A DNA stretch of 32,730 nt, from NCBI GenBank assembly GCA_026710325.1, contig JAPORH010000157.1, forward strand, positions 1-32,730, written 5' to 3'. A program made the translations under genes and the position numbers. This document shows positions 11,716-26,863 of this stretch, piece by piece (position 1 is the first letter of the stretch; every line of letters starts with the position of its first letter). The notes under the pieces were generated by a model that did no database searches, was not told the origin of the DNA, and was given only the letters and a program-made list of their open reading frames with translations. This DNA is from Litoreibacter sp. (GTDB taxonomy: Bacteria; Pseudomonadota; Alphaproteobacteria; Rhodobacterales; Rhodobacteraceae).

Positions 11716-11753
11716 TATCAAGGATGATATCGAAAGCTGATACAGGCATATCA
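11716..11753. promoter_or_regulatory. Candidate operators of the first LacI-type regulator (TGATA/TATCA)
   Basis: Two inverted repeats built from the same five bases precede the lacI-type gene at 11768: TATCA-N4-TGATA at 11716-11729 and TGATA-N6-TATCA at 11738-11753. The second has the same N6 spacing as a site at 12800-12815 just downstream of the gene, in front of the transport operon. LacI-type repressors often control both themselves and the adjacent operon through such paired sites. No binding data are implied. Confidence 0.6.
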
Positions 11754-11767
11754 TCGGTGACCCCTCG

Positions 11768-12802
11768 ATGGCACGTAGACCAACAATCAAAGACATAGCT
11801 CGCGAGGCTGGTGTAAGTGTCGCGACGGTCAATCGTGTTCTGGCTGGAAATGTCCCTGTCCGAGAAGAGACAGGACGACGCGTCTCCGAAGCCGCGCATC
11901 GGATCGGGTACCATGGTACCAACCTGATCGAACAACGGCTCCGCCCCGACTTGCCAAGGGTTCGTTTTGGCTTCGTGATACAAAAGGAACGACAGGGGTT
12001 CTACGAAATGCTTGCTGACGCGTTAGAGGTAGCGGTCAAGCAATTGCAACATGTAAATGGCGATATTGAAGTCGTCTTTTCCCCCTCGCAGTCTCCGAAA
12101 GAGGCTTCCAACGCCCTTCTTGAGATGGCCGAGAATTGCGACGTCATCGGCTCAACGGCTGTGAATCACCACCAAATTAACGATACGGTGCGCGCCCTTT
12201 CCGAACGCGGGATTCCAACCGTGGCCATGCTGTCAGACTTCGCGCAAGGAGAGCGTATAAACTACATTGGTCTCAATAACTTGAAGGTAGGCCGGGGGGC
12301 GGCGTGGCTGCTCTCTTCGACAACGCGCAAACCTGGAAAACTGGCGATTTTTGTTGGGGGGCATCGGTGGCATGGGCATGATTTGCGCGAAGCTGGTTTC
12401 CGGTCGTTCTTCCGGGAGCATCTGCCGCGATTTGATGTGCTCGACACTTTGGTCAATTTAGAAACGCGGGAACTGACACATGAAGCAACGCTCGATCTGT
12501 TGTCACGTCATCCTGATGTCGTCGGTATTTACGTCGCGGGTGGCGGCATGGAGGGTGCAATCAGTGCCTTGCGAGAAGAACGCAATCCCCGGGAGGTTGC
12601 GCTTGTTGTGAATGACCTCACTCTGGAAGCGCGGGCTGGCCTCGCAGATGGCTACGTCACGGCCGTGATTGGAACCCCGCTTCAGTCCTTCTGTCGTGAG
12701 CTCTGTGATCTCATGGTTCAAGCCGTGCTCGGGGAAACGCGGCATGTCGCGGGGCAGCATTTTCTAGACCCGATATTACATATCCCTGAACTGTCTCAAT
12801 GA
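11768..12802 (+). CDS. LacI-family regulator of the inositol transport operon (first of two)
   Basis: This 344-residue protein begins with a canonical LacI DNA-binding domain (PTIKDIAREAGVSVATVNRVL, then the hinge region ending HRIGYHGTN). A sugar-binding periplasmic-protein-like domain follows from about residue 66. It lies immediately upstream of, and in the same direction as, the isomerase/ABC transporter operon, which it probably regulates. Its own stop codon TGA (12800-12802) is the left end of a TGATA-N6-TATCA palindrome that matches one in its own promoter. The ligand is presumably an inositol or a related polyol or sugar; this is inferred from context. Confidence 0.93.
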   Translation: MARRPTIKDIAREAGVSVATVNRVLAGNVPVREETGRRVSEAAHRIGYHGTNLIEQRLRPDLPRVRFGFVIQKERQGFYEMLADALEVAVKQLQHVNGDIEVVFSPSQSPKEASNALLEMAENCDVIGSTAVNHHQINDTVRALSERGIPTVAMLSDFAQGERINYIGLNNLKVGRGAAWLLSSTTRKPGKLAIFVGGHRWHGHDLREAGFRSFFREHLPRFDVLDTLVNLETRELTHEATLDLLSRHPDVVGIYVAGGGMEGAISALREERNPREVALVVNDLTLEARAGLADGYVTAVIGTPLQSFCRELCDLMVQAVLGETRHVAGQHFLDPILHIPELSQ

Positions 12803-12861
12803 TATAAAAGTATCATGCAACCTGTTGCAAAAATATCATTATTGAGACGGAATGACTCAAT
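12799..12861. promoter_or_regulatory. Composite operator region of the inositol transport operon
   Basis: Three different palindromes lie side by side in front of the operon starting at 12939. (1) ATGATA-TAAAAG-TATCAT at 12799-12816 matches the site before the first lacI gene. (2) TGCAAC-CT-GTTGCA at 12816-12829 matches the sites before iolD/iolG-like and before the second lacI gene. (3) ATTGAG-N9-CTCAAT at 12841-12861 has an unknown binder. A degenerate TATCA-N4-TGAGA also lies at 12834-12847. The layout points to control by both LacI-type proteins. I could not place a confident -35/-10 pair. Confidence 0.65.
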
Positions 12862-12938
12862 TTATTGACGTCGAGCCCTATCCTATCCCAGCATAGCCAT
12901 CAACAGGGTGCCCATGAATTGGGCAGGGAGGACCCGCT

Positions 12939-13760
12939 TTGAAGCTTACGCGCGCGCTTAATCATGCGACGACGCCTATGTTGCGTTTTGACCAATTGCT
13001 GGACCTGGCCAAGAGTCTCGGCTGCGCTGGTGTCGAGCTGCGCAATGATCTTGGCGGCGCGTTATTTGACGGTGCAGCGGCACAAGATGCCAAAGCGCAC
13101 GCCAAATCCGCAGGCCTAGACATTCTGACAATTGCGGAAGTCAAAGCATTCAATGATTGGTCAGACGAGAAAGCACGCGAAGCGGAGGCACTGCTGACAA
13201 TTGCTGCGCAGAGCGGTGCAAAAGCCATAAGCCTTATCCCACGAAATGACGGGTACGGTCTCGGCAATGGCGAACGGCAAGCCAAGCTGCGCATCGCACT
13301 TAGGGAGCTCAAGCCGATGTTGGAGGCGCATGACCTGATTGGCTTGGTTGAACCTTTGGGGTTCGAACACTGTTCGATGCAATACAAATCGGAGGCGGTC
13401 GAGATAATCGAAGCCTTGCGCGCGGAAGATCGGATCAAACTGGTGCATGATACGTTCCACCACCATCTCGCAGGTGGCGGCCCTGTTTTTCCGGATCATA
13501 CGGCCATTGTGCATGTCTCCGGCGTCATCGACACCTCGCTTTCTATCCTTGAAATGGCAGACGTTCACCGCGGGCTTGTTGATGGGGCCGACCGCCTCGG
13601 CAACCTGCCGCAGATTAAGGACCTCATGTCGCAAGGATATTCTGGCCCAGTCTCGATCGAGGCCTTTGCCCCTGACGTTCACGCTTTAACAGACCCGAAG
13701 CCAAAGCTTTCGCGGTCTTTCGCTTTCATCGAAGCCAGCTTGTCGGAGCAAGCCGCATGA
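12939..13760 (+). CDS. TIM-barrel sugar isomerase/epimerase, IolI (inosose isomerase)-like
   Basis: This 273-residue protein has the AP-endonuclease-2-type TIM barrel used by IolI, which interconverts 2-keto-myo-inositol isomers. Four likely metal ligands appear in the expected order: Glu138 (GLVEPLGFEH), Asp171 (KLVHDTFHHH), His192 (AIVHVSGVID) and Glu241 (VSIEAF). The start is TTG. No ATG is available nearby, and AGGGAGG lies seven bases upstream, which settles it. It is the first gene of the operon leading into an ABC transporter and IolG, consistent with a role in inositol stereoisomer use. Other sugar-phosphate isomerases of this fold cannot be excluded. Confidence 0.72.
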   Translation: MKLTRALNHATTPMLRFDQLLDLAKSLGCAGVELRNDLGGALFDGAAAQDAKAHAKSAGLDILTIAEVKAFNDWSDEKAREAEALLTIAAQSGAKAISLIPRNDGYGLGNGERQAKLRIALRELKPMLEAHDLIGLVEPLGFEHCSMQYKSEAVEIIEALRAEDRIKLVHDTFHHHLAGGGPVFPDHTAIVHVSGVIDTSLSILEMADVHRGLVDGADRLGNLPQIKDLMSQGYSGPVSIEAFAPDVHALTDPKPKLSRSFAFIEASLSEQAA

Positions 13761-13845
13761 AACTGGCCCAGATGGATCAACGCCCCGACGCGGGCTCCGG
13801 CAAAACAATCCATGCTGCGCCGGACAGCAAATTGGGAGGAAGACT

Positions 13846-14784
13846 ATGAAGAAACTTCTTATCAGCGGGGCAGTTGTCGCGCTTATGACCACTGCCGCCA
13901 TGGCGCAAACGATCGGCGTTTCGGTTGCGCGCTTCGACGACAATGGCCTGACGATCATGCGCAACGGCATGACAGAGCACGCCGCCACCATCGACGGCCT
14001 CGACCTGCAGATGGAAGACGCACAGGACGACGTGGCGCGTCAGCTCGACCAGATCAACAACTTCATCGCCTCCGGCGTGGATGCGATCATCGTCAACGCG
14101 GTGGACACAAACGCGACCGAAGCTATGTCGAACGCCGCCGCCTCTGCGGGTGTGCCGCTGGTCTATGTGAACCGCCAGCCGATCAACATGGAAACGCTGC
14201 CAGAAGGTCAGGCCTTCGTGGCCTCTAACGAGATCGAGTCCGGTACGCTGAAAGCTTTTGAGATCTGCAAAAACCTGCGCGCTGAGGGCAAATCCGGTGG
14301 TGCCAAGGCCTACATGCTGATGGGTCAGCTGTCCAACCAGGCGGCTGTGCAGCGTTCGAAGGACGTGGAAGACGTGATTGGCATGGATATGTGCAACTTC
14401 ATCAAGCTGATCGACAGCCAAACGGCCAACTGGTCGCGTGACGAGGCGCAGAACATGATGACCAACTGGCTCTCCTCCGGGGAGGAGTTTGACGCGGTCT
14501 TCGCCAACAATGACGAAATGGCCATCGGTGCCATCCAGGCGATGAAAGCAGCTGGCATGTCCATGGACGAAGTCCAGGTCGGCGGCGTGGACGCGACCCC
14601 GGATGCGCTGGTTGCGATGCAAGCCGGTGACATGGACGTAACCGTGTTCCAAGACCTTGCTGGCCAGGGCGCGGGCTCCATCGACACGGCGATTGCGCTG
14701 GCGAATGGAGAAGAGGTCGACAAGACCGTCTTCATCCCGTTCAAGCTGGTGACCCCAGACAATGTCAGCGAGTTCGCCAACTAA
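13846..14784 (+). CDS. Periplasmic sugar/inositol-binding protein of an ABC transporter
   Basis: This 312-residue protein has a clean signal peptide (MKK, hydrophobic core, cleavage after AMA at residue 20) and a ribose-binding-type type-1 periplasmic fold. That fold is visible in NNFIASGVDAIIVNAVDTNA, VPLVYVNRQP, FDAVFANNDEMAIGAIQAMK and VGGVDATPDALVAM. It captures the substrate in the periplasm and delivers it to the permease at 14883. Linkage to IolG and the IolI-like gene points to inositol. GGGAGGA lies just upstream of the ATG. A terminator-like hairpin follows the gene, as is common where the binding protein is made in excess over the membrane parts. Confidence 0.9.
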   Translation: MKKLLISGAVVALMTTAAMAQTIGVSVARFDDNGLTIMRNGMTEHAATIDGLDLQMEDAQDDVARQLDQINNFIASGVDAIIVNAVDTNATEAMSNAAASAGVPLVYVNRQPINMETLPEGQAFVASNEIESGTLKAFEICKNLRAEGKSGGAKAYMLMGQLSNQAAVQRSKDVEDVIGMDMCNFIKLIDSQTANWSRDEAQNMMTNWLSSGEEFDAVFANNDEMAIGAIQAMKAAGMSMDEVQVGGVDATPDALVAMQAGDMDVTVFQDLAGQGAGSIDTAIALANGEEVDKTVFIPFKLVTPDNVSEFAN

Positions 14785-14809
14785 GCTTGAGGGCGAATAC
14801 ACACTGAAA

Positions 14810-14835
14810 GGCGGCGTTTTCCGCGCCGCCTTTTT
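14810..14835 (+). terminator. Intrinsic terminator/attenuator between binding protein and permease
   Basis: GGCGGCG-TTTTCCG-CGCCGCC forms a seven-base-pair G+C-only stem followed by five T residues, 25 bases after the binding protein stop. Its position inside the operon suggests partial termination, giving more binding protein than permease. Confidence 0.82.
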
Positions 14836-14882
14836 CCACGAATGACAGGGTTTGGCCGAACGAGGTCTAAGGGGAACGCGGA

Positions 14883-15965
14883 ATGTCGGACACATCACAC
14901 GGAATCGGCGGGTTGAAATTCGACGCCAAGAAGCGGTCATGGCCAAATGAAATAAACATCTTCTTCGCCCTGATCATCATCGTGGTGATCTTTGAAATTC
15001 TGGGGCAAACCCTTCCTTACATGAACGGGCAAAGCTTTTTGTTCGACACGCGGGACCGGTTTGACTCGATTTTCAACGAGGCGCGGCTGAGGATCATCAT
15101 CCTACAGGTCGCCATCATCGGGATCATCGCCCTTGGCGTGACGCAGGTGATTATCTCGGGCGGGATCGATCTGTCATCGGGACCCTTGGTGGGGGCCACG
15201 GCGATGATCGTCATGAGCTTCGCGCAGACCGAGCTGGTGAACGGCAACCCCAACCCGAAGGCCGTGTTTGGAGACTGGGCGTTTGATTTGCCCATGATCC
15301 TACCAGTGATCGTCGGCCTATGTTTCGGGGCCTTTATAGGGGCGATAAACGGTGCACTGATCGCCTACACGCGCATCCCGCCCTTCATTGCCACGCTTGG
15401 CATGTTCTTGATCTGCCGCGGCATCGCGCAGGCGTGGACCCGCGGCAAGCCTGTTTCTTTCCCGACCGAAAGCTATGCCGCGCTCGGCAAAGGCATGATG
15501 CCTGTCTTCTGGTTCCTGCTGCTCGCCGTGATCTTCCACATCGTGCTGAAATACACGCTCTATGGGAAGCACACCTACGCTATCGGCTCGAACGAGGATG
15601 CGGCGCGGATGTCCGGGATCAATGTGAAGCGCCACAAGGTCAGGGTCTATATGATCGCCTCAATGTTGGCGGCCTTTGCGGCGATTATTCTGAGCTCCAA
15701 GAACCTGACGGCGCAGTCGGGCATGGGTATTTTCTATGAGCTTTACGCGATTGCGATGGCTGTTATCGGGGGCGTCAGCCTGACGGGCGGGCGCGGTTCG
15801 ATCATTGGTACGGTGCTTGGTGCGATGGTATTTGGGGTCATCCAATCGGGCTTCACTTACATCAAGCTTGATGCGTTCTTCCAGCTGATGGCCATGGGCG
15901 GCATTATCATCTCGGCGGTTGTGCTGGACAAAATGCGCCAAGAACGCGCTGCAAGTAGATCGTGA
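14883..15965 (+). CDS. ABC transporter permease, RbsC/FrcC type
   Basis: This 360-residue inner-membrane protein has about eight to ten hydrophobic helices. It carries the hallmark segments of the branched-chain/ribose permease family: GVTQVIISGGIDLSSGPLVG, then GALIAYTRIPPFIATLGMF, GKHTYAIGSNEDAARMSGIN (ATPase-coupling loop) and AMAVIGGVSLTGGRGSIIGT. It forms the channel of the inositol-linked transporter. Its TGA (15963-15965) lies just before the ATPase gene, with the ATPase ribosome binding site overlapping the permease end. Confidence 0.93.
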   Translation: MSDTSHGIGGLKFDAKKRSWPNEINIFFALIIIVVIFEILGQTLPYMNGQSFLFDTRDRFDSIFNEARLRIIILQVAIIGIIALGVTQVIISGGIDLSSGPLVGATAMIVMSFAQTELVNGNPNPKAVFGDWAFDLPMILPVIVGLCFGAFIGAINGALIAYTRIPPFIATLGMFLICRGIAQAWTRGKPVSFPTESYAALGKGMMPVFWFLLLAVIFHIVLKYTLYGKHTYAIGSNEDAARMSGINVKRHKVRVYMIASMLAAFAAIILSSKNLTAQSGMGIFYELYAIAMAVIGGVSLTGGRGSIIGTVLGAMVFGVIQSGFTYIKLDAFFQLMAMGGIIISAVVLDKMRQERAASRS

Positions 15966-15976
15966 GGGAGGCCGAT

Positions 15977-16750
15977 ATGAGCGATATCATTCTAGAGACC
16001 AAGGACCTCACTAAGCATTACGGCGGCGTGCATGCACTTGAAGGCGCAAATTTCACGCTGCGCAAAGGCGAGCATGTCGCCATCATGGGGGATAACGGGG
16101 CTGGCAAGTCGACCTTCGTGCGCCAGATTACCGGCGTGGAGCAGCGCACGCGCGGCGACATCATCTTTGATGGCGAACCGGTGCATTTCCAAGGACCGAT
16201 CGAGGCGCGGCGCGCGGGGATCGAGACTGTATTCCAGACCCTCGCTTTGGCTGACGCTTTGGACGTGCCGGACAACCTGTTTTTGGGGCGGGAGATGACC
16301 AAGTGGAACTGGCTCGGGCCGTTCCGTCTTTTGGACTATAAAGGCATGCGGCAGGCCACGATGGACGGGCTGGAGAAAACGGGGGTCAAAATTCCGAACA
16401 TCCGCAACTCGATCCAGAATATGTCTGGCGGGCAGCGGCAATGCGTGGCCATCGCGCGGACCGCGACTTTTGCGTCCAAGCTAACGATCATGGATGAGCC
16501 GACCGCTGCCTTGGGCGTGCAGGAAACCGCACAGGTGGAGAACATTATCCGCGGGTTGAAAGAGGCCGGGGAACCGCTGATCCTCGTCTCCCACAATATG
16601 CGTCAGGTGTTTGATCTGGTGGACCGGATCGTCGTTTTCCGCCGCGGTCGTATCTGCGCTGATCTGAAAAAAGAGGAGACTGACGGACAGGACGTCGTCG
16701 CCTACATCACCGGCGCCAAAACCGGCGCAGGCTTTGAGGAGGCGCTTTAG
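15977..16750 (+). CDS. ABC transporter ATP-binding protein, single nucleotide-binding domain (FrcA-like)
   Basis: This 257-residue ATPase energises the transporter. Walker A GDNGAGKST is at about residues 38-46, the signature MSGGQRQ at 149-155, Walker B KLTIMDEPTAAL from 168, and the switch His206 in LVSHN. It has only one nucleotide-binding domain, unlike the double-domain RbsA type, so it should work as a homodimer in the manner of FrcA. A GTG at 15962 gives a longer frame, but the ATG at 15977 has GGGAGG six bases upstream and is preferred. The stop is immediately followed by the GTG of iolG. Confidence 0.93.
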   Translation: MSDIILETKDLTKHYGGVHALEGANFTLRKGEHVAIMGDNGAGKSTFVRQITGVEQRTRGDIIFDGEPVHFQGPIEARRAGIETVFQTLALADALDVPDNLFLGREMTKWNWLGPFRLLDYKGMRQATMDGLEKTGVKIPNIRNSIQNMSGGQRQCVAIARTATFASKLTIMDEPTAALGVQETAQVENIIRGLKEAGEPLILVSHNMRQVFDLVDRIVVFRRGRICADLKKEETDGQDVVAYITGAKTGAGFEEAL

Positions 16751-17749
16751 GTGGTCAGATTTGGTGTTCTTGGAGCGGGCCGTATTGGGCAGGTGCATGC
16801 GCAGGCGATTGCGTCAGTAAAGGGGGCGTCTTTCGTGGCTTTGGCGGAGCCAGTCGAGGCGGTCGCGAAACAAGTTGCCGATGAGTATGGTTGCGATCTG
16901 CGCAGCATTGATGAAATCGCCGGGTCGGATGACATTGATGCCGTGGTAATCTGCACCCCGACCGACACGCATGCCGATCTGATCGAACAGTTTTGCAAGG
17001 CGGGCAAAGCGGTCTTCTGCGAGAAACCGATCGATCTGGATATCGGCCGCGTTCGGGCCTGTTTGAAGGTCGTCGAGGAAACTGACGGCACCCTGATGTT
17101 AGGTTTCCAAAGACGGTTTGATCCGGACTTCAACGCGCTGCGCAAGGCGATTGATGAAGGTCGCATTGGGGAGGTGGAAATGGTCACGCTCACTTCGCGG
17201 GACCCAGGCGCGCCCCCACTGGACTATATCGACCGTTCCGGTGGAATTTTTCGCGACATGACCATTCACGACTTTGATGTCGCCCGTTGGATGCTGGGGG
17301 AGGAGGTCGAAACCGTTTACGCTTCTGCCTCCGTCCTGACCGATCCGGCTATCGGCGACCATGGCGACTATGACAGTGCCAATGTCACGATGCGCACCGC
17401 GACGGGGAAACACTGCACGATCACAAATAGCCGCCGCGCGACCTACGGCTATGACCAGCGGATTGAGGTGCACGGCTCGACAGGCTCTGTTTCAGCGGAA
17501 AACACGCTTGAAGCCAACATCACCGTGGCCGACGCCAATGGCTATCAGCGCCCGCCGACGCTGGATTTTTTCATGACGCGATACACGGCCGCTTATGCGA
17601 ACGAGATTGCGGCATTTGTCCGCTCCGTGGCAGATGGCGCTGCGCCGCCCACGACGGGGGAGGACGGCTTGCGCGCGCTCGCGATGGCGGAAGCCGCACT
17701 TTTGTCGATCAAGGAGAAGCGCGAGGTGCGCCTTGATGAAATCCTGTGA
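16751..17749 (+). CDS. iolG: Inositol 2-dehydrogenase
   Basis: This 332-residue Gfo/Idh/MocA-family enzyme oxidises myo-inositol to 2-keto-myo-inositol with NAD. The Rossmann loop GVLGAGRIGQVHA is at the N-terminus. The catalytic Lys is in CEKPIDLD (Lys92), and the Asp and His of the active site are in GGIFRDMTIHDFD (Asp169, His173). GFQRRFDPDF and TNSRRATYGYDQR are characteristic of IolG within this large family. The GTG start follows directly on the ATPase stop. The TGA overlaps the next gene by four bases (GTGA), so the operon is tightly coupled. Confidence 0.9.
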   Translation: MVRFGVLGAGRIGQVHAQAIASVKGASFVALAEPVEAVAKQVADEYGCDLRSIDEIAGSDDIDAVVICTPTDTHADLIEQFCKAGKAVFCEKPIDLDIGRVRACLKVVEETDGTLMLGFQRRFDPDFNALRKAIDEGRIGEVEMVTLTSRDPGAPPLDYIDRSGGIFRDMTIHDFDVARWMLGEEVETVYASASVLTDPAIGDHGDYDSANVTMRTATGKHCTITNSRRATYGYDQRIEVHGSTGSVSAENTLEANITVADANGYQRPPTLDFFMTRYTAAYANEIAAFVRSVADGAAPPTTGEDGLRALAMAEAALLSIKEKREVRLDEIL

Positions 17750-17949
17750 AGGGTTTCGACTTCGATCACCCGTTTTTTGATCCGCTTTGGCGGCGGGTGG
17801 TCACATTTGGGGTGTGTTTCGGGTGGGGCCTGTTTGAGTTCGCAACCGGTCACCCGTTTTGGGGTGCAGTGTTCTGGGGCTTAGGCGGTTGGGCTGGGTA
17901 CCATTTCTTCGTCAAGAACCTGGACCGGGAAGGCTCTGACGAAGGCTAG
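17746..17949 (+). CDS. Small inner-membrane protein at the end of the inositol transport operon
   Basis: This 67-residue protein has two hydrophobic aromatic-rich segments (about residues 16-33 and 36-56) flanked by charged ends, including a C-terminal NLDREGSDEG. The GTG start overlaps the iolG stop (GTGA), so translation is coupled. I know of no assigned function. The position suggests a helper of the transporter or dehydrogenase. It ends in a four-base CTAG overlap with the convergent aldolase gene. Confidence 0.8.
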   Translation: MKGFDFDHPFFDPLWRRVVTFGVCFGWGLFEFATGHPFWGAVFWGLGGWAGYHFFVKNLDREGSDEG

Positions 17950-18770
17950 CGTAATCCGTCAAGCACCTTTCGGGCTGCCGCGACCATCGGGGCATGCGTG
18001 TCTTTCAGGATTTGAACCCGGTCAAAGCGCGTCTCGTCTTTCGAGATGCTGTCGCGCAATGCGGCGCCAAAGGCCATGCGCAACTCGGTGCCGATATTGA
18101 ATTTGCAAATGGTCGACCCATTTGCCAGCGCCTTCCGCTGTGCCAGTGGCACACCGGAGCCGCCATGGATCACCAGCGGCACATTGGTGACGGCTTCAAT
18201 GGCGCGAATGCGCTCTTCATACAAACCATCGCCGGCGTCTTCTTGAAGGTGGACGTTGCCGACTGAGATCGCCATGGCGTCAACGCCGGTCTCCTTCGCG
18301 AAGATCGCGGCCTCGTCAGGGTCTGTTCCTGCCGAATTCTCGCCATTGGCGTAGCCGACAAAGCCAATTTCCCCTTCGCAGGAGATGCCCGCCTTATGCG
18401 CCATTTCGGCAATCGCTGCGGTTTGGTCGATATTTTGTTGAAGCGGCAGGCGCGAGCCGTCGAACATGAGCGACGTAAAGCCACTCTCTAGCGCTTCTTG
18501 GCACTCCTGAAACGTATAGCCGTGATCAAGGTGAGCCACGACGGGTACGCTGACTTCGTCGGCCAAATACCGGAACATCTTGCCGAGGATCGGTAGTGGC
18601 GTGTGCTCCCGGCATCCAGGTCCTGCTTGCAAGATCACCGGGCAGCCCTCTTCTTCAGCGGCAAAGGCGTAGGCCCGCATATCTTCCCAACCGAGGCACA
18701 CCAACCCGCCGACCGCATAGCCGTCCCTTAAGGCAGGTTGGAGGACCTCCGCGAGTGTCGCCAGTGTCAC
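17946..18770 (-). CDS. iolJ: Class II aldolase, 6-phospho-5-dehydro-2-deoxy-D-gluconate aldolase
   Basis: This 274-residue class II fructose-bisphosphate-aldolase-family protein carries the zinc site and active-site pieces in order: VAHLDHG (Asp82, His83), GEIGFVG (Glu134), VGNVHL (His174) and VIHGGSGVP (His202). In inositol breakdown this enzyme cleaves phosphorylated 5-dehydro-2-deoxygluconate into malonate semialdehyde and dihydroxyacetone phosphate. Placement directly after iolB (four-base overlap) supports that role over fructose- or tagatose-bisphosphate cleavage. It is the last gene of the iolD-C-B-J operon. Confidence 0.86.
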   Translation of the reverse strand: MTLATLAEVLQPALRDGYAVGGLVCLGWEDMRAYAFAAEEEGCPVILQAGPGCREHTPLPILGKMFRYLADEVSVPVVAHLDHGYTFQECQEALESGFTSLMFDGSRLPLQQNIDQTAAIAEMAHKAGISCEGEIGFVGYANGENSAGTDPDEAAIFAKETGVDAMAISVGNVHLQEDAGDGLYEERIRAIEAVTNVPLVIHGGSGVPLAQRKALANGSTICKFNIGTELRMAFGAALRDSISKDETRFDRVQILKDTHAPMVAAARKVLDGLR

Positions 18771-19609
18771 TTGAACTTCGCGATCATGTCTTTGATGCCG
18801 GGGATCGTTTCCAGCTGATCGGCATGAGAGGGCTGGAAATACTGAACGAGGCTGCGTTGTGACAAACCGCCGAGGATCGTGAAGTAATACATCTCATAGC
18901 CCGGCAGCACCGCGCAGGGGTGATAGCCGCTGTCGAGGCAGATCGTGGAGCCGTCAACAATATGATAGGCGTCACCCGGTTTGCCATCCTGACGCTGCAG
19001 CATCTGCACGCCCGAGCCGTGGTCCGGCTTGAAGCGGAAATTATAGGTCTCATCATGCCGCGTTTCGATCGGCAGGCGGTCCGTGTCATGCTTGTGGCTT
19101 GGGAAACCAGACCAGCCACCGGCGCCGACTGTGAACAGCTCGCTGACGAGCAAACGGCCCACCTTGTCATGGTATTTCGTACCGAGGATATGCTTGATTT
19201 TGCGATGCGTTTTGGTGTCGTCGGAGCCGTATTGCACGAGGTCGAGCTCGTCAGCGCGAACGGCAAAAGGCTCCAGCGTCTCGTCATATTTGGCGCCCGC
19301 GATGAACACTTCTGTGTCGTCGGAGGTGCAAACAAATGTCGTCTTGGCTGCGGTCGGTACGTAAACACCCTCCGGCTCCCCGCCCCAGACATCACCGACG
19401 CGACCGCCGATATCTTCTGCCTTGAACCCTTCAACCTCGACATCAACGCTACCAGTCGCAGGCACGATGCACGTTTCAAAGCCCGGCACGTGGTATTCAA
19501 ACGCGTCGCCTTTTTTCAGCTTTACGATGTTGAAGTAGTTTAGTGGGACCGTCGGGTCGTCCACATCCACGATAGGTTTGTTCTGATTGTCGTAAGGGGC
19601 GATATGCAT
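18767..19609 (-). CDS. iolB: 5-deoxy-glucuronate isomerase
   Basis: This 280-residue bicupin-type protein converts 5-deoxy-D-glucuronate, the product of IolD, into 5-dehydro-2-deoxygluconate. The metal-binding signature is in GWSGFPSHKHD (His172, His174), HDETYNFRF (Glu187) and SGYHPC (His230), the pattern seen in IolB. It lies 10 bases after iolC and overlaps iolJ by four bases. Length and motifs are normal. Confidence 0.95.
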   Translation of the reverse strand: MHIAPYDNQNKPIVDVDDPTVPLNYFNIVKLKKGDAFEYHVPGFETCIVPATGSVDVEVEGFKAEDIGGRVGDVWGGEPEGVYVPTAAKTTFVCTSDDTEVFIAGAKYDETLEPFAVRADELDLVQYGSDDTKTHRKIKHILGTKYHDKVGRLLVSELFTVGAGGWSGFPSHKHDTDRLPIETRHDETYNFRFKPDHGSGVQMLQRQDGKPGDAYHIVDGSTICLDSGYHPCAVLPGYEMYYFTILGGLSQRSLVQYFQPSHADQLETIPGIKDMIAKFK

Positions 19610-19619
19610 GGTGATCCTC

Positions 19620-20609
19620 TCAGGTGGCGGTTGGGCCGGGATGGGTTGTCAAAAACGTCTCTAGTTCGGCCAAATCGGGCAAAGCAGGCGCGCACCCCGG
19701 TTTGCCGACAACAATGGCCGCGCAGGCAGAGCCGCGATGGATGGCGTCTTTCAGATCAAAACCAGCGGCGATGGCGGCCATTAAACCGGCCATGAAACTG
19801 TCGCCCGCGCCTGTGGGTTTCAAAGCATCGACTTTGTAAATGCCTGTTGTGATCACATCACCGCCCGCATAAGTGACCGCGCCTTTTTCGCCCATCTTGT
19901 AGATGACGATGGACGCGGAGCTTTCAGCAAGCGCTTGCGCCTTGGCTTGGCCCTTCGCGATGTCGCCCGCCATGAATCCAAATTCTTCATCATTGCCGAC
20001 GATCATGTTTGCCATCTCGCCCGCGCGGCTCAGAACATCTTCCGCCACTTGTGGAGAAGGCCAAGAATAGGGTCTGTAATCGATGTCAAAAATGATTGGA
20101 AGGCCCGCCTCCCGCGCCAGTTTAAACGCGCGAAAGGCGGCGCTGCGGGATGGCTCCGCCGCAAAAACGGTGCCCGCTGTGATCAACGCGCCATAGCTCG
20201 CGTAATCCAAAGCCTCAACGTCATCGGTGCTCATCTGAAAATCGGCTGCGCCATTACGATAGATCACCGTCTGGTGGTCTTCGACGCGTGTTTCATAAAC
20301 GGCGAGGGAATTGCGGTACTCGCCGCCCACAGGGCGCACGTGCTGATGGCCAACGCCATAGTGTTCCAGCTGGTTCACGCAATAGCGTCCAACGCTATCG
20401 TCAGAAACGCAGGTCACCAGATCGGCTTTGCCGCCGAACCTACAAATCCCAGCCGCCGTATTAGCGGCAGAACCGCCGAGCCCGGAACGAAACTCGGTCG
20501 CCTCCTCGGTCTTTGTACCTGCCGGGTGGGGGAAGAAATCCATGCCCGCGCGCCCGATCACGAGGAAGTTGTTTTGCCTTATGCCGTTGAGTAACACGGA
20601 CATGCTCAC
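19620..20609 (-). CDS. iolC: 5-dehydro-2-deoxygluconokinase
   Basis: This 329-residue PfkB-family kinase phosphorylates 5-dehydro-2-deoxygluconate. The family signatures are SGLGGSAANTAAGICRFGG near residues 42-60 and KPTGAGDSFMAGLM at 264-277, with Asp270 as catalytic base. The GTG start overlaps the iolD stop (GTGA). An ATG two codons further in (20603) is equally possible. It is single-domain, without the C-terminal extension found in some rhizobial IolC proteins, which fits with a separate IolJ aldolase in the same operon. Confidence 0.93.
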   Translation of the reverse strand: MSMSVLLNGIRQNNFLVIGRAGMDFFPHPAGTKTEEATEFRSGLGGSAANTAAGICRFGGKADLVTCVSDDSVGRYCVNQLEHYGVGHQHVRPVGGEYRNSLAVYETRVEDHQTVIYRNGAADFQMSTDDVEALDYASYGALITAGTVFAAEPSRSAAFRAFKLAREAGLPIIFDIDYRPYSWPSPQVAEDVLSRAGEMANMIVGNDEEFGFMAGDIAKGQAKAQALAESSASIVIYKMGEKGAVTYAGGDVITTGIYKVDALKPTGAGDSFMAGLMAAIAAGFDLKDAIHRGSACAAIVVGKPGCAPALPDLAELETFLTTHPGPTAT

Positions 20610-22477
20610 ACGCCTTTCCGCTGTTTCGACCGGCTGCTTTCCCAGTCTTCATGCGCGGCTTTGACCTTCGGGTTATCGGTGACGTGAGGCGTGCCGACCT
20701 CCCACCACGTATGCCCTTCATTGGTCCAGCCTTCATATGCATCGACTTTCATGACGATGACTGATGTTTTGTCGGCTGCCTTGGCACGCTTAAACGCCTC
20801 ACCCAATTCCGCTGGGTTAGACACGGTTTCTGCTTCTGCCCCCATCGACCGCGCATGCGCCTCGAAGTCCACCGCGAAGGCTTCGGGCACCGTTGGCGTA
20901 TCAGCGAAAAGATTGTTGAAGCTCTCGTTGCCGGTGTTGTTTTGAAGTTTGTTGATCACTGCGAACCCGCCATTGTCGAGCACCAGAATGATCAGCTTCT
21001 TGCGGGTTAGGACCGAGCTGTAGATGTCGGAATTCATCAGCAGGTAGGAGCCATCGCCGCAAAAGACGATTGTGTCTTGATCCGGCTCGACTTCAGATTG
21101 CGCAATGCGCGCGCCCCAGCCCCCGGCAATTTCATAGCCCATGCAGGAGAAGCCGAATTCGACGTCGACCGTGCCGATATCGAGAGTCCGCCAATTCGCG
21201 GTGACCTCCGCCGGAAGTCCGCCAGCAGCAGCCACAACGCGGTCACGCGGCGCGCAAAGAGCGTTCACAACGCCAATCGCCTGCGCGTAAGAATTTGGTC
21301 TGTTTCCGGGGGCTACGTTCTTTGCGACATAAGCGTCCCATGTTTGCCGTTCCGCCTGCGCATGTGTCGTCCAGCTTTCGGGCGCTTTGTAATCGCCTAT
21401 CTTTTTTTCCAGAGCCAACAGACCGAGTTTCGCGTCACCCACAATCGGGAGGGAGCGATGTTTGCCCGCGTCATGCCTCCCTGCGTTGAGGGAGATGATC
21501 TGCGCATCCTTGGCAAAGGCGGTCCAAGATCCGGTTGTGAAATCCTGCAAGCGGCAGCCGACGGAGAGGATCACGTCTGCCTCTTCGGCAATTGTGTTTG
21601 CGGAATTCGAACCTGTCACGCCGACAGGGCCGATATTGAGGTCGTGTTCGTTAGTCAGATTGGCACGACCTGCAATAGTTTCGATGACTGGAATCTGGTG
21701 GGCCTCAGCGAAGGCAGTCAGTTCCGCCACCGCCTTTGAATACTGAACGCCGCCACCCGCGATGATAACCGGGCGCTTGGCGGTTTTCAAAAGCGCAGAT
21801 GCCTCTTTCACTTCGCGCGTGTCGGGTGCTTGTCTGCGGATGCGGTGCAGTTTCTCCTCGAACATCTCAACCGGGTAATCATAGGCCCAGCCCTGTACGT
21901 CTTGTGGGAGGCCGATAAAGGCCGGGCCGCAGTCTGCCGGGTCCAGCATCGTAGCGATTGCGGCGGGTAAAGACTGGATGATCTGCGCCGGATGGGTGAT
22001 CCGGTCCCAATAACGGCTGACGGCTTTAAACGCGTCATTCACGCCAAAGGTCGGATTGTTGAAATGTTCCAACTGTTGCAGCACCGGGTCGGGGAGGCGC
22101 GTCAGAAACGTGTCACCGCAAAGCATCAGCATGGGCAAACGATTCGCATGTGCGAGCGCCGCAGAGGTCAAAAGGTTGGCCGTGCCCGGCCCGGCAGAGG
22201 CGGTACAGAACATGAAGCGCTGGCGTAGATGGTATTTCGCGTAAGCCGCGGCGGCAAAGCCCATGCTTTGCTCATTTTGACCGCGATAAAGCGGCAGAGC
22301 ATCCTTGTGATCGAAAAGCGCCTCGCCCAGGCAAGTCACGTTGCCATGGCCAAAAATGCCGAAACCGCCACCGCAAAGACGGGTCTTCTCGCCATCGATT
22401 TCGATGTACTGCGCCGCGAGGTAACGAGTGATGGCCTGTGCGACTGTTAGGCGAACTGTGTCTGCACTATGGTTCAT
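20606..22477 (-). CDS. iolD: 3D-(3,5/4)-trihydroxycyclohexane-1,2-dione acylhydrolase (ring-opening)
   Basis: This 623-residue thiamine-diphosphate enzyme opens the ring of diketo-inositol to 5-deoxy-D-glucuronate. The cofactor-activating Glu69 lies in RGQNEQ, and the ThDP/Mg motif runs from GDGS (474-477) to the Asn of DNGG (502). ASAGPGTANLLTSAALAH is the usual domain signature. It is the first gene of the iolD-C-B-J operon, with GGGAG about eight bases before the ATG. The 120-base gap to the divergent operon holds the palindromic operator at 22557 and a weaker copy at 22503. Confidence 0.96.
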   Translation of the reverse strand: MNHSADTVRLTVAQAITRYLAAQYIEIDGEKTRLCGGGFGIFGHGNVTCLGEALFDHKDALPLYRGQNEQSMGFAAAAYAKYHLRQRFMFCTASAGPGTANLLTSAALAHANRLPMLMLCGDTFLTRLPDPVLQQLEHFNNPTFGVNDAFKAVSRYWDRITHPAQIIQSLPAAIATMLDPADCGPAFIGLPQDVQGWAYDYPVEMFEEKLHRIRRQAPDTREVKEASALLKTAKRPVIIAGGGVQYSKAVAELTAFAEAHQIPVIETIAGRANLTNEHDLNIGPVGVTGSNSANTIAEEADVILSVGCRLQDFTTGSWTAFAKDAQIISLNAGRHDAGKHRSLPIVGDAKLGLLALEKKIGDYKAPESWTTHAQAERQTWDAYVAKNVAPGNRPNSYAQAIGVVNALCAPRDRVVAAAGGLPAEVTANWRTLDIGTVDVEFGFSCMGYEIAGGWGARIAQSEVEPDQDTIVFCGDGSYLLMNSDIYSSVLTRKKLIILVLDNGGFAVINKLQNNTGNESFNNLFADTPTVPEAFAVDFEAHARSMGAEAETVSNPAELGEAFKRAKAADKTSVIVMKVDAYEGWTNEGHTWWEVGTPHVTDNPKVKAAHEDWESSRSKQRKGV

Positions 22478-22502
22478 ACAAGAGCTCCCTTCGGCATTAC
22501 TT

Positions 22503-22574
22503 TTTGCAATCGGCTGCGTGCCCTATTGACCTTTATGTTGTCGACAGGATAGCTGTTTTGCAACCGGTTGCAAA
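22503..22574. promoter_or_regulatory. Divergent iol promoter with strong and weak LacI-type operators
   Basis: TTTGCAACCGGTTGCAAA at 22557-22574 is a perfect 18-base palindrome with a central CG, typical of LacI-family operators. A degenerate copy at 22503-22520 (TTTGCAATCGGCTGCGTG) matches it at 13 of 18 positions, centre to centre 54 bases away, near five helical turns. Between them TTGACC (22526) could be a -35 element for the plus-strand operon, with a weak -10 near 22549-22555 abutting the operator. The same palindrome recurs at 12816 and 26848. The second LacI-type protein (25805-26800) is the likely binder. Confidence 0.75.
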
Positions 22575-22597
22575 CCGAAATTCAGGGAGGGCTCAAA

Positions 22598-23692
22598 ATG
22601 CCTGAAATTGGCATTGGGATCGTTGGAGGCGGCTATATGGGCAAGGCTCATTCCGTCGCGATGGCCTCTGTCGCGTCCGTCTTTGATACAAAGTTGCGCC
22701 CGCGATTGGAGGTCGTGGCTGCCTCGTCCCCTTCTTCGGCGGAGAAGTATCGCGACAAGTTTGGCTTCCGCCGTGCGGCTGCTGACTGGCGTGATCTCGT
22801 CGCCGACCCGAAGGTTGAGGCCATCGTTATCGCGTCACCGCAATGGACGCATCGCGAGATCGCGGAAGCTGCCTTCGCACGCGGATTGCATGTTCTGTGC
22901 GAAAAGCCCCTTGGTGGTTCGATTGAGGATGGCGAAGCGATGGTTGCAGCGGCCAAAGCCAGCGGTTGTCGAAACATGGTTGGTTTCAACTACATCCGGA
23001 CGCCAGCGACGCAATTTGCACGCAAACTGATTGAAGACGGGCGGATAGGCGAACTTGTATACTTCCGGGGGGAGCATACCGAAGATTTCGACGCTGACCC
23101 CGATGGTCCAGCCACGTGGCGCAGTACCGGGGTTTCCAACGGAAATTTGGGAGACCTCGCGCCGCATATCATCAATGCGGCGCACACCCTGATCGGCCCC
23201 ATCCGATCGCTCATAGCTGAAGCTGAAACAGTCCACAAAACCCGCGGCGAGGTCGAGGTCACAAATGATGATCAGGCGCAAATCATGTGCCGTTTCGACA
23301 ATGGTGTAATGGGTCATTTGTTCTCCAGCCGCGTCGCGACGGGCCGCAAGATGGGCTATGCCTATGAGGTGCATGGCACTAAAGGCGCAATACGGTTCGA
23401 CCAGGAGGATCAAAACGCGATCTGGCTTTATCTGGCCGAAGGGCCGGAAGCGGAACGCGGCTTTCGCAAGGTTCTGACAGGCCCCGCGCATCCTGACTAT
23501 CTGGGCTTTTGCCAAGGGCCCGGGCACGGGACTGGGTACCAAGATCAAATCATAATTGAAGCGAAACACTTCCTTGATTCCATCGCAACTGGAGAGGATG
23601 TCTGGCCGAGTTTTGAGCAAGGTCAATATGTTAACAAAGTGGTCCATGCGGCGCTTGCCTCGAACGAGGCAAAGGCCTGGGTGACCCTATAA
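22598..23692 (+). CDS. Gfo/Idh/MocA-family dehydrogenase of the inositol cluster (second paralogue)
   Basis: This 364-residue protein has the N-terminal Rossmann loop GIVGGGYMGKAHS, the catalytic-lysine motif CEKPLGGS and a C-terminal sugar-binding domain. It is clearly diverged from the IolG at 16751. The longer frame from TTG at 22568 would start inside the operator; ATG 22598, with AGGGAGG upstream, is the real start. It is first in an operon with iolE. Likely substrates are other inositol isomers or inososes; the exact one cannot be read from sequence. Confidence 0.85.
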   Translation: MPEIGIGIVGGGYMGKAHSVAMASVASVFDTKLRPRLEVVAASSPSSAEKYRDKFGFRRAAADWRDLVADPKVEAIVIASPQWTHREIAEAAFARGLHVLCEKPLGGSIEDGEAMVAAAKASGCRNMVGFNYIRTPATQFARKLIEDGRIGELVYFRGEHTEDFDADPDGPATWRSTGVSNGNLGDLAPHIINAAHTLIGPIRSLIAEAETVHKTRGEVEVTNDDQAQIMCRFDNGVMGHLFSSRVATGRKMGYAYEVHGTKGAIRFDQEDQNAIWLYLAEGPEAERGFRKVLTGPAHPDYLGFCQGPGHGTGYQDQIIIEAKHFLDSIATGEDVWPSFEQGQYVNKVVHAALASNEAKAWVTL

Positions 23693-23706
23693 TCGGGAAG
23701 ACAAAG

Positions 23707-24594
23707 ATGATCAGAATTGGCAATGCGCCTTGTTCCTGGGGCGTGGAATTTGCGGATGATGCGCGCAATCCAACTTGGCAGACCGTGCTGAAAGAAAATG
23801 CGGAAGCGGGTTACAAAGGCATCGAGCTTGGCCCGGTAGGATTCATGCCCGAGGACGCGTCAGTCCTTTCTGATGCGTTAGCGGAGCACGACCAAACCCT
23901 GATCGGTGGCGTCGTCTTTCGGGCGTTTCACGATCCGGATCAGTGGGATGACGTGATGGACGGCGCGGTGCGCACTTGCAAGGCGCTGAAATCCCATGGT
24001 GCGGAGCATCTTGTGCTGATCGATTCCATTGCAGCGCAGCGTGCGCCGACCGCTGGTCGGGTCGATGAGGCCGAGCAAATGGGTAAAGAGGAATGGGCCA
24101 CATTCCGCGACAAGATCGCCACCATCGCCAAAATGGGCGCTGAGGAATATGGGCTGACCGTCGGCATCCACGCACATGCTGGTGGCTTCATGGATTTTGA
24201 GCCCGAACTGGAACGGCTTTTGAACGAGGTAGACGAAAGCATCCTAAAAATTTGCTTCGACACAGGGCACCATTCCTATGCGGGCTTCGATCCGGTCGCC
24301 TTCATGCAACGTCATATCGGGCGGATCAGCTATATGCATTTCAAAGATATCGATCCGGTCGTGAAGGCTGAGGTCGTCGCCAACCGAACCGACTTCTACA
24401 AAGCCTGCGGGCAAGGTATTTTTTGCAACTTGGGCGACGGCGATGTCGACTTCCCCGCGGTGCGTCAGGTGCTGCTCGACGCAGGGTTTGAGGGGTGGTG
24501 CACGGTGGAGCAAGACTGTGACCCGCTGCTTGATCCTGACCCTTTAGGTGACGCGAAAAAGAACCGCGCCTACCTGCAATCCATCGGCTTTTGA
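23707..24594 (+). CDS. iolE: Myo-inosose-2 dehydratase
   Basis: This 295-residue TIM-barrel enzyme removes water from 2-keto-myo-inositol to give the diketone used by IolD. The family hallmarks are IGNAPCSWGVEF at the N-terminus, GYKGIELGPVGFMP, VGIHAHAGGFMDFEPELE, CFDTGHHSYAGFDPVAFM and SYMHFKDIDP. These carry the metal-binding Glu, Asp and His residues. It sits between two dehydrogenase paralogues, 14 bases after the first and 9 before the second. Length is normal. Confidence 0.95.
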   Translation: MIRIGNAPCSWGVEFADDARNPTWQTVLKENAEAGYKGIELGPVGFMPEDASVLSDALAEHDQTLIGGVVFRAFHDPDQWDDVMDGAVRTCKALKSHGAEHLVLIDSIAAQRAPTAGRVDEAEQMGKEEWATFRDKIATIAKMGAEEYGLTVGIHAHAGGFMDFEPELERLLNEVDESILKICFDTGHHSYAGFDPVAFMQRHIGRISYMHFKDIDPVVKAEVVANRTDFYKACGQGIFCNLGDGDVDFPAVRQVLLDAGFEGWCTVEQDCDPLLDPDPLGDAKKNRAYLQSIGF

Positions 24595-24603
24595 GGTGCT
24601 GAC

Positions 24604-25761
24604 ATGACGCGACTGAATTGGGGTATGATTGGTGGGGGTGAGGGTTCTCAGATTGGGCCGGCGCATAGATTAGGCGCGGGGCTCGATGGGGATTTCTCAA
24701 TGGTTGCAGGGGCTTTGGATCATAATCCAGAAGCTGGCCGCGACTTTGCTCAGCGTCTTGGGATAGCCCAAGACCGTGCCTACGGCGACTGGAGGGAGAT
24801 GCTGGAAGGCGAAAGCGCGCGTGAAGATCGGATTGATCTGGTGACAGTTGCCACTCCGAATGCGACTCATTTTGAGATCACCAAAGCGTTCCTGGAAAAC
24901 GGGTTCAATGTGCTGTGCGAAAAGCCCATGACAATGACCGTCGAGGAGGGCGAGGTGATCACCAAACTCGCTGCTGATACGGGAAAGATCTGCGCGGTGA
25001 ATTACGGTTATTCTGGCTACTCGCTGGTGCGCCATATGCGGGCGATGGTGGCGCGAGGCGATCTTGGTGCGGTGCGCGTTGTTGTCGCCGAGTTTTCGCA
25101 CGGGCATCACGCAGATGCTGCGCAAGCCGACAATCCTCGCATTCGCTGGCGTTATGATCCGGCACAAATGGGGGCCTCAGCCCAGTTTGCTGATTGCGGT
25201 ATTCACGCCTTGCACATGGCTTCCTTCGTGACTGGGCAGGAGGTCGAAACGCTCTCAGCAGATTTCGCCTCAACCATTTCCAGTCGGGAGCTGGAAGATG
25301 ATGCGATGGTTAATTTCAGGATGAATGGTGGCGCCGTCGGCAGGCTCTGGACCTCGGCTGTTGCTGTTGGTCGCATGCATGGTTTGACGATACAGGTGTT
25401 TGGTGAAAAGGGCGGGCTTCGTTGGGCGCAAGAGCAGCCGAACCAGCTCTTCTGGACGCCAACAAATGGCCGTGTTCAGGTGATCGAACGCGGGGAGGCC
25501 GATTTGTCGCCCGAGGCCGATCGCGCTACGCGTGTGACGATCGGTCATGCAGAAGGGATGCCGCTGGCCTTTGCCAATATCTACTCCGACCTGGCTGAGG
25601 TGATCCGTGCGCAAAAAGGCGGGCGTGCGCCCGATCCGGCGGCCATGCATTATCCGAAAGCCGTGGACGGTTTGCGCTCGATGGCGGCGGTGCATGCGTG
25701 CGTGGACTCGGCTAAGAAAAATGGAGAGTGGGTAAACGCGGTTCCGCAATCGTTAACTTAG
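24604..25761 (+). CDS. Gfo/Idh/MocA-family dehydrogenase, third paralogue (inositol-isomer type)
   Basis: This 385-residue protein has the nucleotide-binding loop in WGMIGGGEGSQIGPAHR, catalytic Lys in CEKPMTMTVEEGE, and active-site Asp and His in FADCGIHALHM. The GGGEGSQIG form and longer length resemble dehydrogenases acting on scyllo-inositol and related polyols rather than classical IolG. That is family-level recall, not a search result. It ends the plus-strand operon and lies tail to tail with the second lacI gene, 43 bases away. Confidence 0.84.
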   Translation: MTRLNWGMIGGGEGSQIGPAHRLGAGLDGDFSMVAGALDHNPEAGRDFAQRLGIAQDRAYGDWREMLEGESAREDRIDLVTVATPNATHFEITKAFLENGFNVLCEKPMTMTVEEGEVITKLAADTGKICAVNYGYSGYSLVRHMRAMVARGDLGAVRVVVAEFSHGHHADAAQADNPRIRWRYDPAQMGASAQFADCGIHALHMASFVTGQEVETLSADFASTISSRELEDDAMVNFRMNGGAVGRLWTSAVAVGRMHGLTIQVFGEKGGLRWAQEQPNQLFWTPTNGRVQVIERGEADLSPEADRATRVTIGHAEGMPLAFANIYSDLAEVIRAQKGGRAPDPAAMHYPKAVDGLRSMAAVHACVDSAKKNGEWVNAVPQSLT

Positions 25762-25804
25762 CCGGCAGGCAGAGGCGCGTTACTGGTCGTGAGGCGGCAC
25801 CTTT

Positions 25805-26800
25805 TCAAGTGCCTCGCAGCGTTCCGCGCTCCACGATGTGGCAAGGAAACAAGCGCGCTTCCGGGTAGCGTTCCGGATCGTCCAGCATCGCGGTTACGAG
25901 CTCGATGGAGGACGCGATAATCTGCTGAATTGGTTGGTGAATTGTTGTCAGCGCGATGTTGTCCCAGCCTGCCATTTCCATATCGTTCAGCCCGATTAAT
26001 CCGATGTCTGTTGGGGTTGTTAGTCCAGCTGACTGGATCGCACTCAAAGCGCCGATGGACAGAACATCGTCGCCGCAGAAATAGGCCTCAGCCGGGCCAT
26101 CTGAGATGAGGCACGCCATCTCTTCGCGCCCAGCTTTGAAGCTGTAGGCATCGGCAAAACTGTGGGTTTGGCTTACGCCCGGGGTGCCACGAACGACCTC
26201 TAGAAAGCCGCTTAATCGGTCTTGCGTCGAAGTGGCTTTTTCTGGCCCGCCCATGAAGGCTATTTTGCGGTAGCCGCGTTTGATCAGAGCATGGGCCGCC
26301 ATCCGCCCGCATTCCACATTGTCGATCCCCACGACATGGACATCCGGGCTTGTGGTATGACGACCAAAGGAATTGACCACCGGCATTCCCGCTTCCCGAA
26401 AGGACTTCGCAAAGCTGGGCGGCAGCGTCGAGGAAGCCACAATCACGCCATCAACGGAATACTGCCGCAACAGGTTGAGTGCTTGTTCGCGGTCTTTTTG
26501 CTGTGACAGGTTTACAAGGAGCGGCCGCAAACCGCGCTCTTGCAGGCCTTGCGTAAAAAGGTCGAACACTTCCAGAAAGATTGGATTGTGAAAGTTGTCG
26601 GAAACCAGCCCGATCAGTTTGGTTCGCCCCGTCGTCAAAGAAGAAGCGAGCGCATTTGGGCGATACCCCAGTTCATTCGCAGCTTTCGTGACCTTGGCGC
26701 GCGTCTTGTCTGAAACAGACGCGCCTTCCGTGAACGTGCGCGAGACAGCAGACCGGGAAACACCTGCCCGCAAAGCCACATCTTTCAAGGTCACGGCCAT
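25805..26800 (-). CDS. LacI-family repressor, probable master regulator of the iol regulon
   Basis: This 331-residue LacI-type protein has an N-terminal helix-turn-helix (VTLKDVALRAGVSRSAVSRTF, with hinge ELGYRPNALASSL) and a sugar-binding regulatory domain beginning TKLIGLVSDNFHNP. The frame extends to 26866, but the ATG at 26800 has AAAGGA seven bases upstream and starts the DNA-binding domain normally. The longer version would also code across its own operator. The upstream region holds four TTGCAA-type units matching the palindromes before the inositol operons, so it very likely represses those operons and itself. Confidence 0.93.
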   Translation of the reverse strand: MAVTLKDVALRAGVSRSAVSRTFTEGASVSDKTRAKVTKAANELGYRPNALASSLTTGRTKLIGLVSDNFHNPIFLEVFDLFTQGLQERGLRPLLVNLSQQKDREQALNLLRQYSVDGVIVASSTLPPSFAKSFREAGMPVVNSFGRHTTSPDVHVVGIDNVECGRMAAHALIKRGYRKIAFMGGPEKATSTQDRLSGFLEVVRGTPGVSQTHSFADAYSFKAGREEMACLISDGPAEAYFCGDDVLSIGALSAIQSAGLTTPTDIGLIGLNDMEMAGWDNIALTTIHQPIQQIIASSIELVTAMLDDPERYPEARLFPCHIVERGTLRGT

Positions 26801-26827
26801 TCTGTTTCCTTTCGTCCAAACCAACTG

Positions 26828-26863
26828 TTGCAAGGAATTGCAAAAATTTGCAACTGGTTGCAT
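26828..26863. promoter_or_regulatory. Four TTGCAA units at exact 10-bp spacing before the second lacI gene
   Basis: TTGCAA occurs at 26828, 26838 and 26848 and TTGCAT at 26858, each 10 bases from the last. The outermost pair (26848-26863, TTGCAA-CTGG-TTGCAT) matches the operators at 22558 and 12815. The inner pairs have AT-rich centres and may be weaker. The array lies 28-63 bases upstream of the lacI start and probably mediates autoregulation. Confidence 0.72.

Follow-up and report, generated by a model that had tools for sequence, protein, structure and literature searches.

Which of two LacI-type proteins reads the palindrome that recurs in the promoter regions of an inositol cluster? The question is raised by a 32,730-nucleotide stretch of the genome of a marine bacterium, Litoreibacter sp. 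(assembly GCA_026710325.1, contig JAPORH010000157.1; hereafter the window), in which genes for inositol transport and catabolism lie between lacI-1 (11768 to 12802, plus strand) and lacI-2 (25805 to 26800, minus strand), the latter encoding the predicted inositol repressor. Taken as a whole, sequence comparisons make it very likely that LacI-2 is the specific regulator of the cluster and reads the palindrome TTGCAACCGGTTGCAA. From half-sites arrayed in 10-bp steps, LacI-2 would repress the gene that encodes it, and it would add control to the operon of transport genes and iolG until an inositol-derived inducer, inositol itself or an intermediate, releases it; at the transport promoter, LacI-1 would bind elements of its own that flank the LacI-2 site. 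LacI-type inositol regulators are already known; the nested two-LacI promoter is the unusual part, and together with the half-site array it makes the system a variant.

Palindromic sites in the window

The core palindrome TGCAACNNGTTGCA (TGCAAC-N2-GTTGCA) has three exact copies in the window (12816 to 12829, 22559 to 22572, and 26849 to 26862), against 0.01 expected, and none of 100 shuffles reached three. A preliminary description of this DNA had placed these copies before the transport operon, between iolD and the divergent dehydrogenase operon, and before lacI-2, had noticed no further full copy, and had called 22557 to 22574 a perfect 18-bp palindrome; exact searching and the sequence itself bore out all of this. 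The longer form TTGCAA-N4-TTGCAA, given there as the common site, is complete at 22558 to 22573 and carries one flanking mismatch each at 12815 and 26848, and overlapping units of this form at 26828 and 26838 had been overlooked. With up to three mismatches allowed, the window holds 27 matches against 18 expected, a number equalled in 1 of 100 shuffles, and therefore it is mainly the exact sites that stand out. The 16-bp site has the even-length palindromic form of LacI/GalR operators. A central CG, which is usual in LacI operators (PMC4052901), is found in the window only at the 22558 site, the other two being centred on CT and TG.

LacI-2 itself has the LacI/GalR make-up, with a helix-turn-helix (HTH) domain (PF00356, 58.4 bits, cut-off 27) and a periplasmic-binding-protein-like sensor domain (PF13377, 89.5 bits, cut-off 26.5). 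Its best solved relative is PurR, the hinge leucine of which corresponds to Leu55 in LacI-2 and to Met in two of eight aligned orthologs. LacI-1 also pairs an HTH (PF00356) with a sensor domain (Peripla_BP_4, PF13407), both over cut-off, and is 22% identical to LacI-2 over 319 aligned positions.

Co-occurrence of the palindrome with LacI-2

We compared the occurrence of both proteins and of the motif in a family sample of 149 genomes, one per genus and including the Litoreibacter genome itself. LacI-2 orthologs were called at 55% identity or more (55 to 75% outside the genome itself, with the next paralogs at 43% or less) and LacI-1 orthologs at 50% or more, which left out three genomes with weaker matches of 35 to 39% (G014, G059, and G121). 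LacI-2 was found in 45 genomes, and all 40 genomes with exact TTGCAACCGGTTGCAA belong to these 45; with one mismatch allowed, TGCAACCGGTTGCA occurs in every one of the 45.

The same sample bears on whether LacI-1 could be the reader instead, as the position of its stop codon 12 bp before the 12815 site might suggest. Exact copies of the motif are present in 13 of the 27 LacI-1 genomes, but all 13 also encode LacI-2: the motif occurs in 13 of 15 genomes with both proteins, in 27 of 30 with LacI-2 and no LacI-1, and in none of 12 with LacI-1 and no LacI-2. LacI-1 loci moreover share a different element, TGAYR-N6-YRTCA. We therefore rejected LacI-1 as the reader, a reading with almost no chance of being right. 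One genome (G126) has LacI-1 and the iolJBC|DH1-iolE-DH2 arrangement but no LacI-2, and its iolJBC|DH1 locus has no LacI-2-type site at two or fewer mismatches.

Half-sites similar to those of the palindrome are also used by PurR. Together with the 14 LacI-type HTH regions in the Litoreibacter genome and the similar half-sites described for CytR (PMC3454398), this could point to another LacI-type paralog as the reader. Such a paralog is very unlikely, given that lacI-2 is linked to the cluster and co-occurs with the motif across genera. The proposal that the second LacI-type protein governs this local regulon thus draws support from the pattern across the 149 genomes.

LacI-2 is present in 20 of 21 same-genus genomes, and the best 80 of 532 confirmed loci, hereafter the named loci, come from Litoreibacter, many other Rhodobacteraceae, Hoeflea, Roseibium, Rhizobium sp. 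Root274, and Aurantimonas, along with a few records titled Granulosicoccaceae or Chromatiales, some of them metagenome-assembled genomes. These comparisons give a well-conserved predicted operator and regulator for inositol use in many Rhodobacteraceae, some Rhizobiales, and other proteobacterial records. At one locus (L333), the LacI-2 gene (76%) is adjoined by a second, short LacI-2-like stretch (61%), the two lying at 10001 and 12437; the short stretch is perhaps the remnant of a duplication.

The iolD|DH1 divergon

One of the three predicted operators is the exact TTGCAACCGGTTGCAA at 22558 to 22573, between iolD and the gene for the Gfo/Idh/MocA-type dehydrogenase DH1, and it is kept in relatives. 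Sites with no more than one mismatch were found in 36 of 37 such divergons among the 45 family loci and in all 66 among the 80 named loci, two sets that overlap (for example, L304 is G140). The predicted promoter of the DH1-iolE-DH2 operon (22526 to 22552, plus strand) consists of TTGACC followed by GATAG 5 bp before the operator. Across 79 distinct iolD|DH1 divergon sequences, the consensus of this box is GATAC, likewise 5 bp before the operator and with every base at 80% or more; the window has GATAG in its place. Since the operator lies directly downstream of this conserved -10-like box, a protein bound to it would be placed to block the DH1 operon, and the presumed iolD promoter would be controlled from the same site.

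Activation by LacI-2 would be the alternative, and LacI-type activators do exist, such as IpsA of Corynebacterium, which activates ino1 (PMC3899939); the blocking position argues against it, and we regard it as extremely unlikely. IpsA resembles LacI-2 as a LacI-type protein with myo-inositol as its effector and differs in controlling the synthesis of inositol-derived lipids (PMC3899939).

The iolD divergons of four loci from genomes lacking LacI-2 (L354, L360, L361, and L362) contain TTGCAATGATCATTGCAA or a close variant, a palindrome related to the operator but with a gap of 6 bp and not 4.

A half-site array before lacI-2

Upstream of lacI-2, the 26849 site closes a series of four half-sites, TTGCAA-N4-TTGCAA-N4-TTGCAA-N4-TTGCAT (26828 to 26863), in which the overlapping units at 26828 and 26838 and the 26848 site follow one another in 10-bp steps. 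Two LacI-2 dimers could occupy the array 20 bp apart on one face of the DNA. Runs of at least three half-sites at this step, with at most one mismatch, also occur in the seven nearest same-genus genomes (L212 to L218; L227 was not included in this listing), and outside the genus the scanned loci yielded two more, at L313 in a divergon and at L287 before lacI-2. Such a register-sharing run is unusual because the site spacings reported by Ravcheev et al. peak at 13, 22, and 32 bp (PMC4052901). The array could serve as a test case for the choice that LacI dimers make where registers overlap.

A site with two or fewer mismatches was present in the 250 bp upstream of lacI-2 in 26 of 45 family cases and 71 of 81 named cases. 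At some loci lacI-2 lies behind transport genes, and it is these genes that the operator precedes (L088, L102, L112, L117, and L118, and likewise L302 and L322). At L083, L085 to L087, and many of the named loci, a different and distantly related ABC (ATP-binding cassette) transporter is divergent from lacI-2, with about 28% identity to the window's permease and about 36% to its ATPase.

A predicted nested promoter for the transport operon

Two LacI-1-type elements, A (TGAYR-N6-YRTCA) and B (YRTCA-N4-TGAYR), surround the third site. Exact matches to A lie at 11738 to 11753 (TGATACAGGCATATCA), 14 bp before the lacI-1 start, and at 12800 to 12815 (TGATATAAAAGTATCA), flanking lacI-1; because 10 of 100 shuffles reach two matches, with 0.41 expected, the bare count is not rare, and it is the placement that speaks. 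Element B (12834 to 12847, TATCATTATTGAGA) has one mismatch and lies 33 bp from A. Nested between the two is the predicted LacI-2 operator ATGCAACCTGTTGCAA (12815 to 12830), with its 14-bp perfect palindrome. Downstream we read from the sequence a predicted promoter, TTGACG-N18-CAGCAT (12865 to 12894, plus strand), for which a consensus sigma-70 scan gave no match; the same boxes at the same spacing recur without mismatch in L197, L201, L202, L205, and L206 among the 32 loci scanned, with no account taken of the window, L182, and L191. Relative to the start site predicted from this promoter, on which the figures depend, A, the operator, and B are centred at about -93.5, -78.5, and -60.5, respectively.

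Elements of this kind accompany lacI-1 widely. In the regions after lacI-1 at the 32 loci, A is present with no more than one mismatch at 26, B at 22, and both at 19, and the distance between their centres is 32 to 34 bp at 25. The corresponding figures for 1,600 shuffles, 5.8% for A, 5.8% for B, and 0.7% for both, serve as a guide and not as an out-of-sample test, because the patterns were derived from the same 32 loci on which they were counted. Before lacI-1, an exact A within 120 bp was found at 12 of 24 loci (a count that includes the window), with 11 of these copies between -25 and -35, and at 3 of 8 same-genus loci; the copy at 11738 is probably an autoregulatory operator of lacI-1, which LacI-1 would bind. 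The expectation that one palindrome marks every transcription unit holds for the three window sites and falls short in that the transport operon also has LacI-1-type elements and lacI-1 is preceded by these only.

The LacI-2 site is far less regular at this promoter than the LacI-1-type elements. Although present in the window, as first described, it is absent (four or more mismatches) from four of seven close same-genus transport promoters (L203 to L206; three minus-strand loci, L207, L210, and L211, were left out of these counts), where LacI-2 is encoded and A is kept at up to one mismatch and B at one to two, and from the more distant L208 and L209. Among loci from other genera that carry LacI-2 and have lacI-1 beside the transport genes, a site at no more than one mismatch follows lacI-1 in 2 of 10 (L173 and L320) and in none of the other eight (L123, L125, L183 to L185, L187, L193, and L195). 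These gaps, together with the CT centre, could mean that the 12815 site is a chance occurrence or a weak site and that LacI-1 alone runs the transport operon. We consider this unlikely, as the site is a perfect palindrome over 14 bp, a consensus version centred on CG is nested identically in G160 (L201; A and B with one mismatch each), and LacI-2 sites precede transport genes at no fewer than nine other loci (L088, L102, L112, L117, L118, L163, L173, L174, and L176). The placement varies, with the site downstream of the promoter boxes in G164 (L202) and touching the -35 box in G118 (L173). Because the LacI-2 site is so often missing beside LacI-1, control of the LacI-1 type seems the more constant layer and LacI-2 control a patchy addition to it.

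Many activators sit near -61. As B lies close to this position, the promoter may be a switch of the CytR kind, in which LacI-1 at A and B would activate and LacI-2 between them would block or remodel; we offer this tentatively, as a fairly unlikely reading. If it is correct, uptake would open only with LacI-1 active and LacI-2 released by its inducer, and anti-activation at this promoter would be the work of two LacI-family proteins, with no part played by CRP. LacI-1 may instead be a repressor here, perhaps acting by looping. The CRP site pattern is TGTGA-N6-TCACA, which has no match at two or fewer mismatches in 12800 to 12850 (the nearest is at 12607, inside lacI-1), and CRP sites flanking the 12815 operator were accordingly rejected. 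In Escherichia coli, CytR, a LacI-family protein, acts by anti-activation from a site flanked by two CRP sites (PMC3454398), a layout matched here at the level of motifs by A (12800 to 12815), the operator (12815 to 12830), and B (12834 to 12847). One published form of the CytR site, an inverted repeat around AAC-GC-GTTGCATT, also resembles TGCAAC-N2-GTTGCA (PMC3454398). Unlike in E. coli, the flanking elements here are LacI-1-type, and activation by LacI-1 is only proposed. The nested promoter offers a natural test case for two LacI-family proteins sharing one promoter.

Sites elsewhere in the genome

Scattered copies across the genome (4.19 Mb, 240 contigs) would speak against a local regulon, and the scan was largely favourable. 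At two or fewer mismatches, TTGCAACNNGTTGCAA matches 25 places against 7 for the reversed pattern; sites with two mismatches were traced to neighbouring open reading frames (ORFs) and some of their Pfam domains. At one mismatch or fewer, nine places remain: the three in the window, four on contig C196, one inside a DUF815 gene (C6:5910), and one inside polA (C194:11643).

Several observations weigh against LacI-2 as the specific regulator of the cluster. The four good copies on C196, at 18712, 18783, 18901, and 25837 (L016: 12213, 12284, 12402, and 19338), lie away from inositol genes and are unexplained; they are near-perfect palindromes centred on CTAG or CCAG, and three share a 205-bp stretch roughly 1 kb from pckA. 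A scan of ten neighbouring ORFs showed no inositol-type gene, the contig has no LacI gene, and a search of the other 20 same-genus genomes at E 0.001 gave no DNA match to the 904-bp segment with the three copies. Two of the three window sites lack the central CG found in 194 of 200 sites collected from relatives, a share biased upward because those sites were chosen by likeness to a CG-centred consensus. The site before lacI-2 is missing in the remainder of the 45 and 81 cases, some of which fit co-transcription while others (for example, L106, L107, L116, and L124) are unexplained, and one divergon (L119, in G068) has only a site with three mismatches. Finally, Fisher's exact P value for the co-occurrence of TTGCAACCGGTTGCAA and LacI-2 (about 4e-31) assumes independent genomes and, because the genomes are related, overstates the evidence and serves as an indication.

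An extra copy before iolA, for which the preliminary description had proposed to look, did not appear: the best mmsA/iolA match in the genome lies outside the window, on C20 (L048), and the 4.4 kb scanned there contain no site, the best having four mismatches. An AT-centred copy, TGCAACATGTTGCA, recurs in many same-genus genomes and was not counted as regulatory because at each of the five loci inspected (L018 and L264 to L267) a long reading frame encloses it, which is polA in L018. Five genomes of the same genus (G160, G162, G164, G165, and G167) and G123 have an exact LacI-2 operator ahead of a CoA-transferase gene (loci L254, L256 to L259, and L172); no CoA-transferase gene was present in the loci fetched around sites in the Litoreibacter genome itself.

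Relation to known inositol regulators

Ravcheev et al. (2014) list in their Table 1 seven LacI groups for inositol, named IolR (PMC4052901), and the system described here resembles them in its LacI-type regulator, even palindrome with central CG, common autoregulation, and inositol pathway; the likeness is one of description. As for those regulators, operators precede inositol genes and the regulator's own gene in the window and in relatives, the own-gene site not in every relative; unlike their reported spacings, the LacI-2 array runs in 10-bp steps. Rhizobium etli RHE_CH02362 is a LacI-type IolR (PMC8877191) that we liken to LacI-2 by description. Because Rhizobium sp. Root274 (L337) carries LacI-2 at 75% identity and exact operators, RHE_CH02362 possibly belongs to the same ortholog group.

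The RpiR-type IolR of Caulobacter and Sinorhizobium likewise regulates inositol transport and catabolism in alphaproteobacteria, but it is a SIS-domain protein with GGAA-N6-TTCC sites (PMC2597717, PMC8877191). With no exact GGAA-N6-TTCC match in the window and only LacI-family domains in LacI-2, RpiR-type sites were rejected, and the LacI-2 system appears separate from the RpiR-type IolR. The string TTGCAACCGGTTGCAA was not found in the literature searched, nor were reports of an inositol LacI repressor in Rhodobacteraceae or of an inositol-catabolism regulator in Roseobacter; as subscription papers mostly fell outside its scope, this is weak evidence of absence.

Genes of the cluster

The transport operon, on the plus strand, begins with a xylose isomerase-like TIM-barrel protein (12939 to 13760, PF01261), followed by a sugar-type ABC substrate-binding protein (13846 to 14784, PF13407), a permease (14883 to 15965, PF02653), and an ATPase (15962 to 16750, PF00005), and ends with the inositol 2-dehydrogenase IolG (16751 to 17749; TIGR04380, 418.5 bits, cut-off 355). 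DH1 (22598 to 23692; best NCBIfam match levoglucosan dehydrogenase, 300 bits, below the cut-off of 650), the IolE-like inosose dehydratase (23707 to 24594; TIGR04379, 182 bits, below 290), and a second Gfo/Idh/MocA-type dehydrogenase, DH2 (24604 to 25761; weak NCBIfam dehydrogenase matches, all below cut-off), follow one another on the plus strand. Divergent from these, the minus strand encodes IolD (20606 to 22477; TIGR04377, 799 bits, cut-off 715), the IolC kinase (19620 to 20609; TIGR04382, 319.2 bits, cut-off 300), an IolB-like 5-deoxy-glucuronate isomerase (18767 to 19609; TIGR04378, 145.4 bits, below 205), and a class II aldolase (17946 to 18770; TIGR01859, 210.8 bits, below 343) that is IolJ-like by context. 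In Phaeobacter inhibens, an IolJ-like aldolase, PGA1_c07220, was found by myo-inositol fitness data (PMC9007349).

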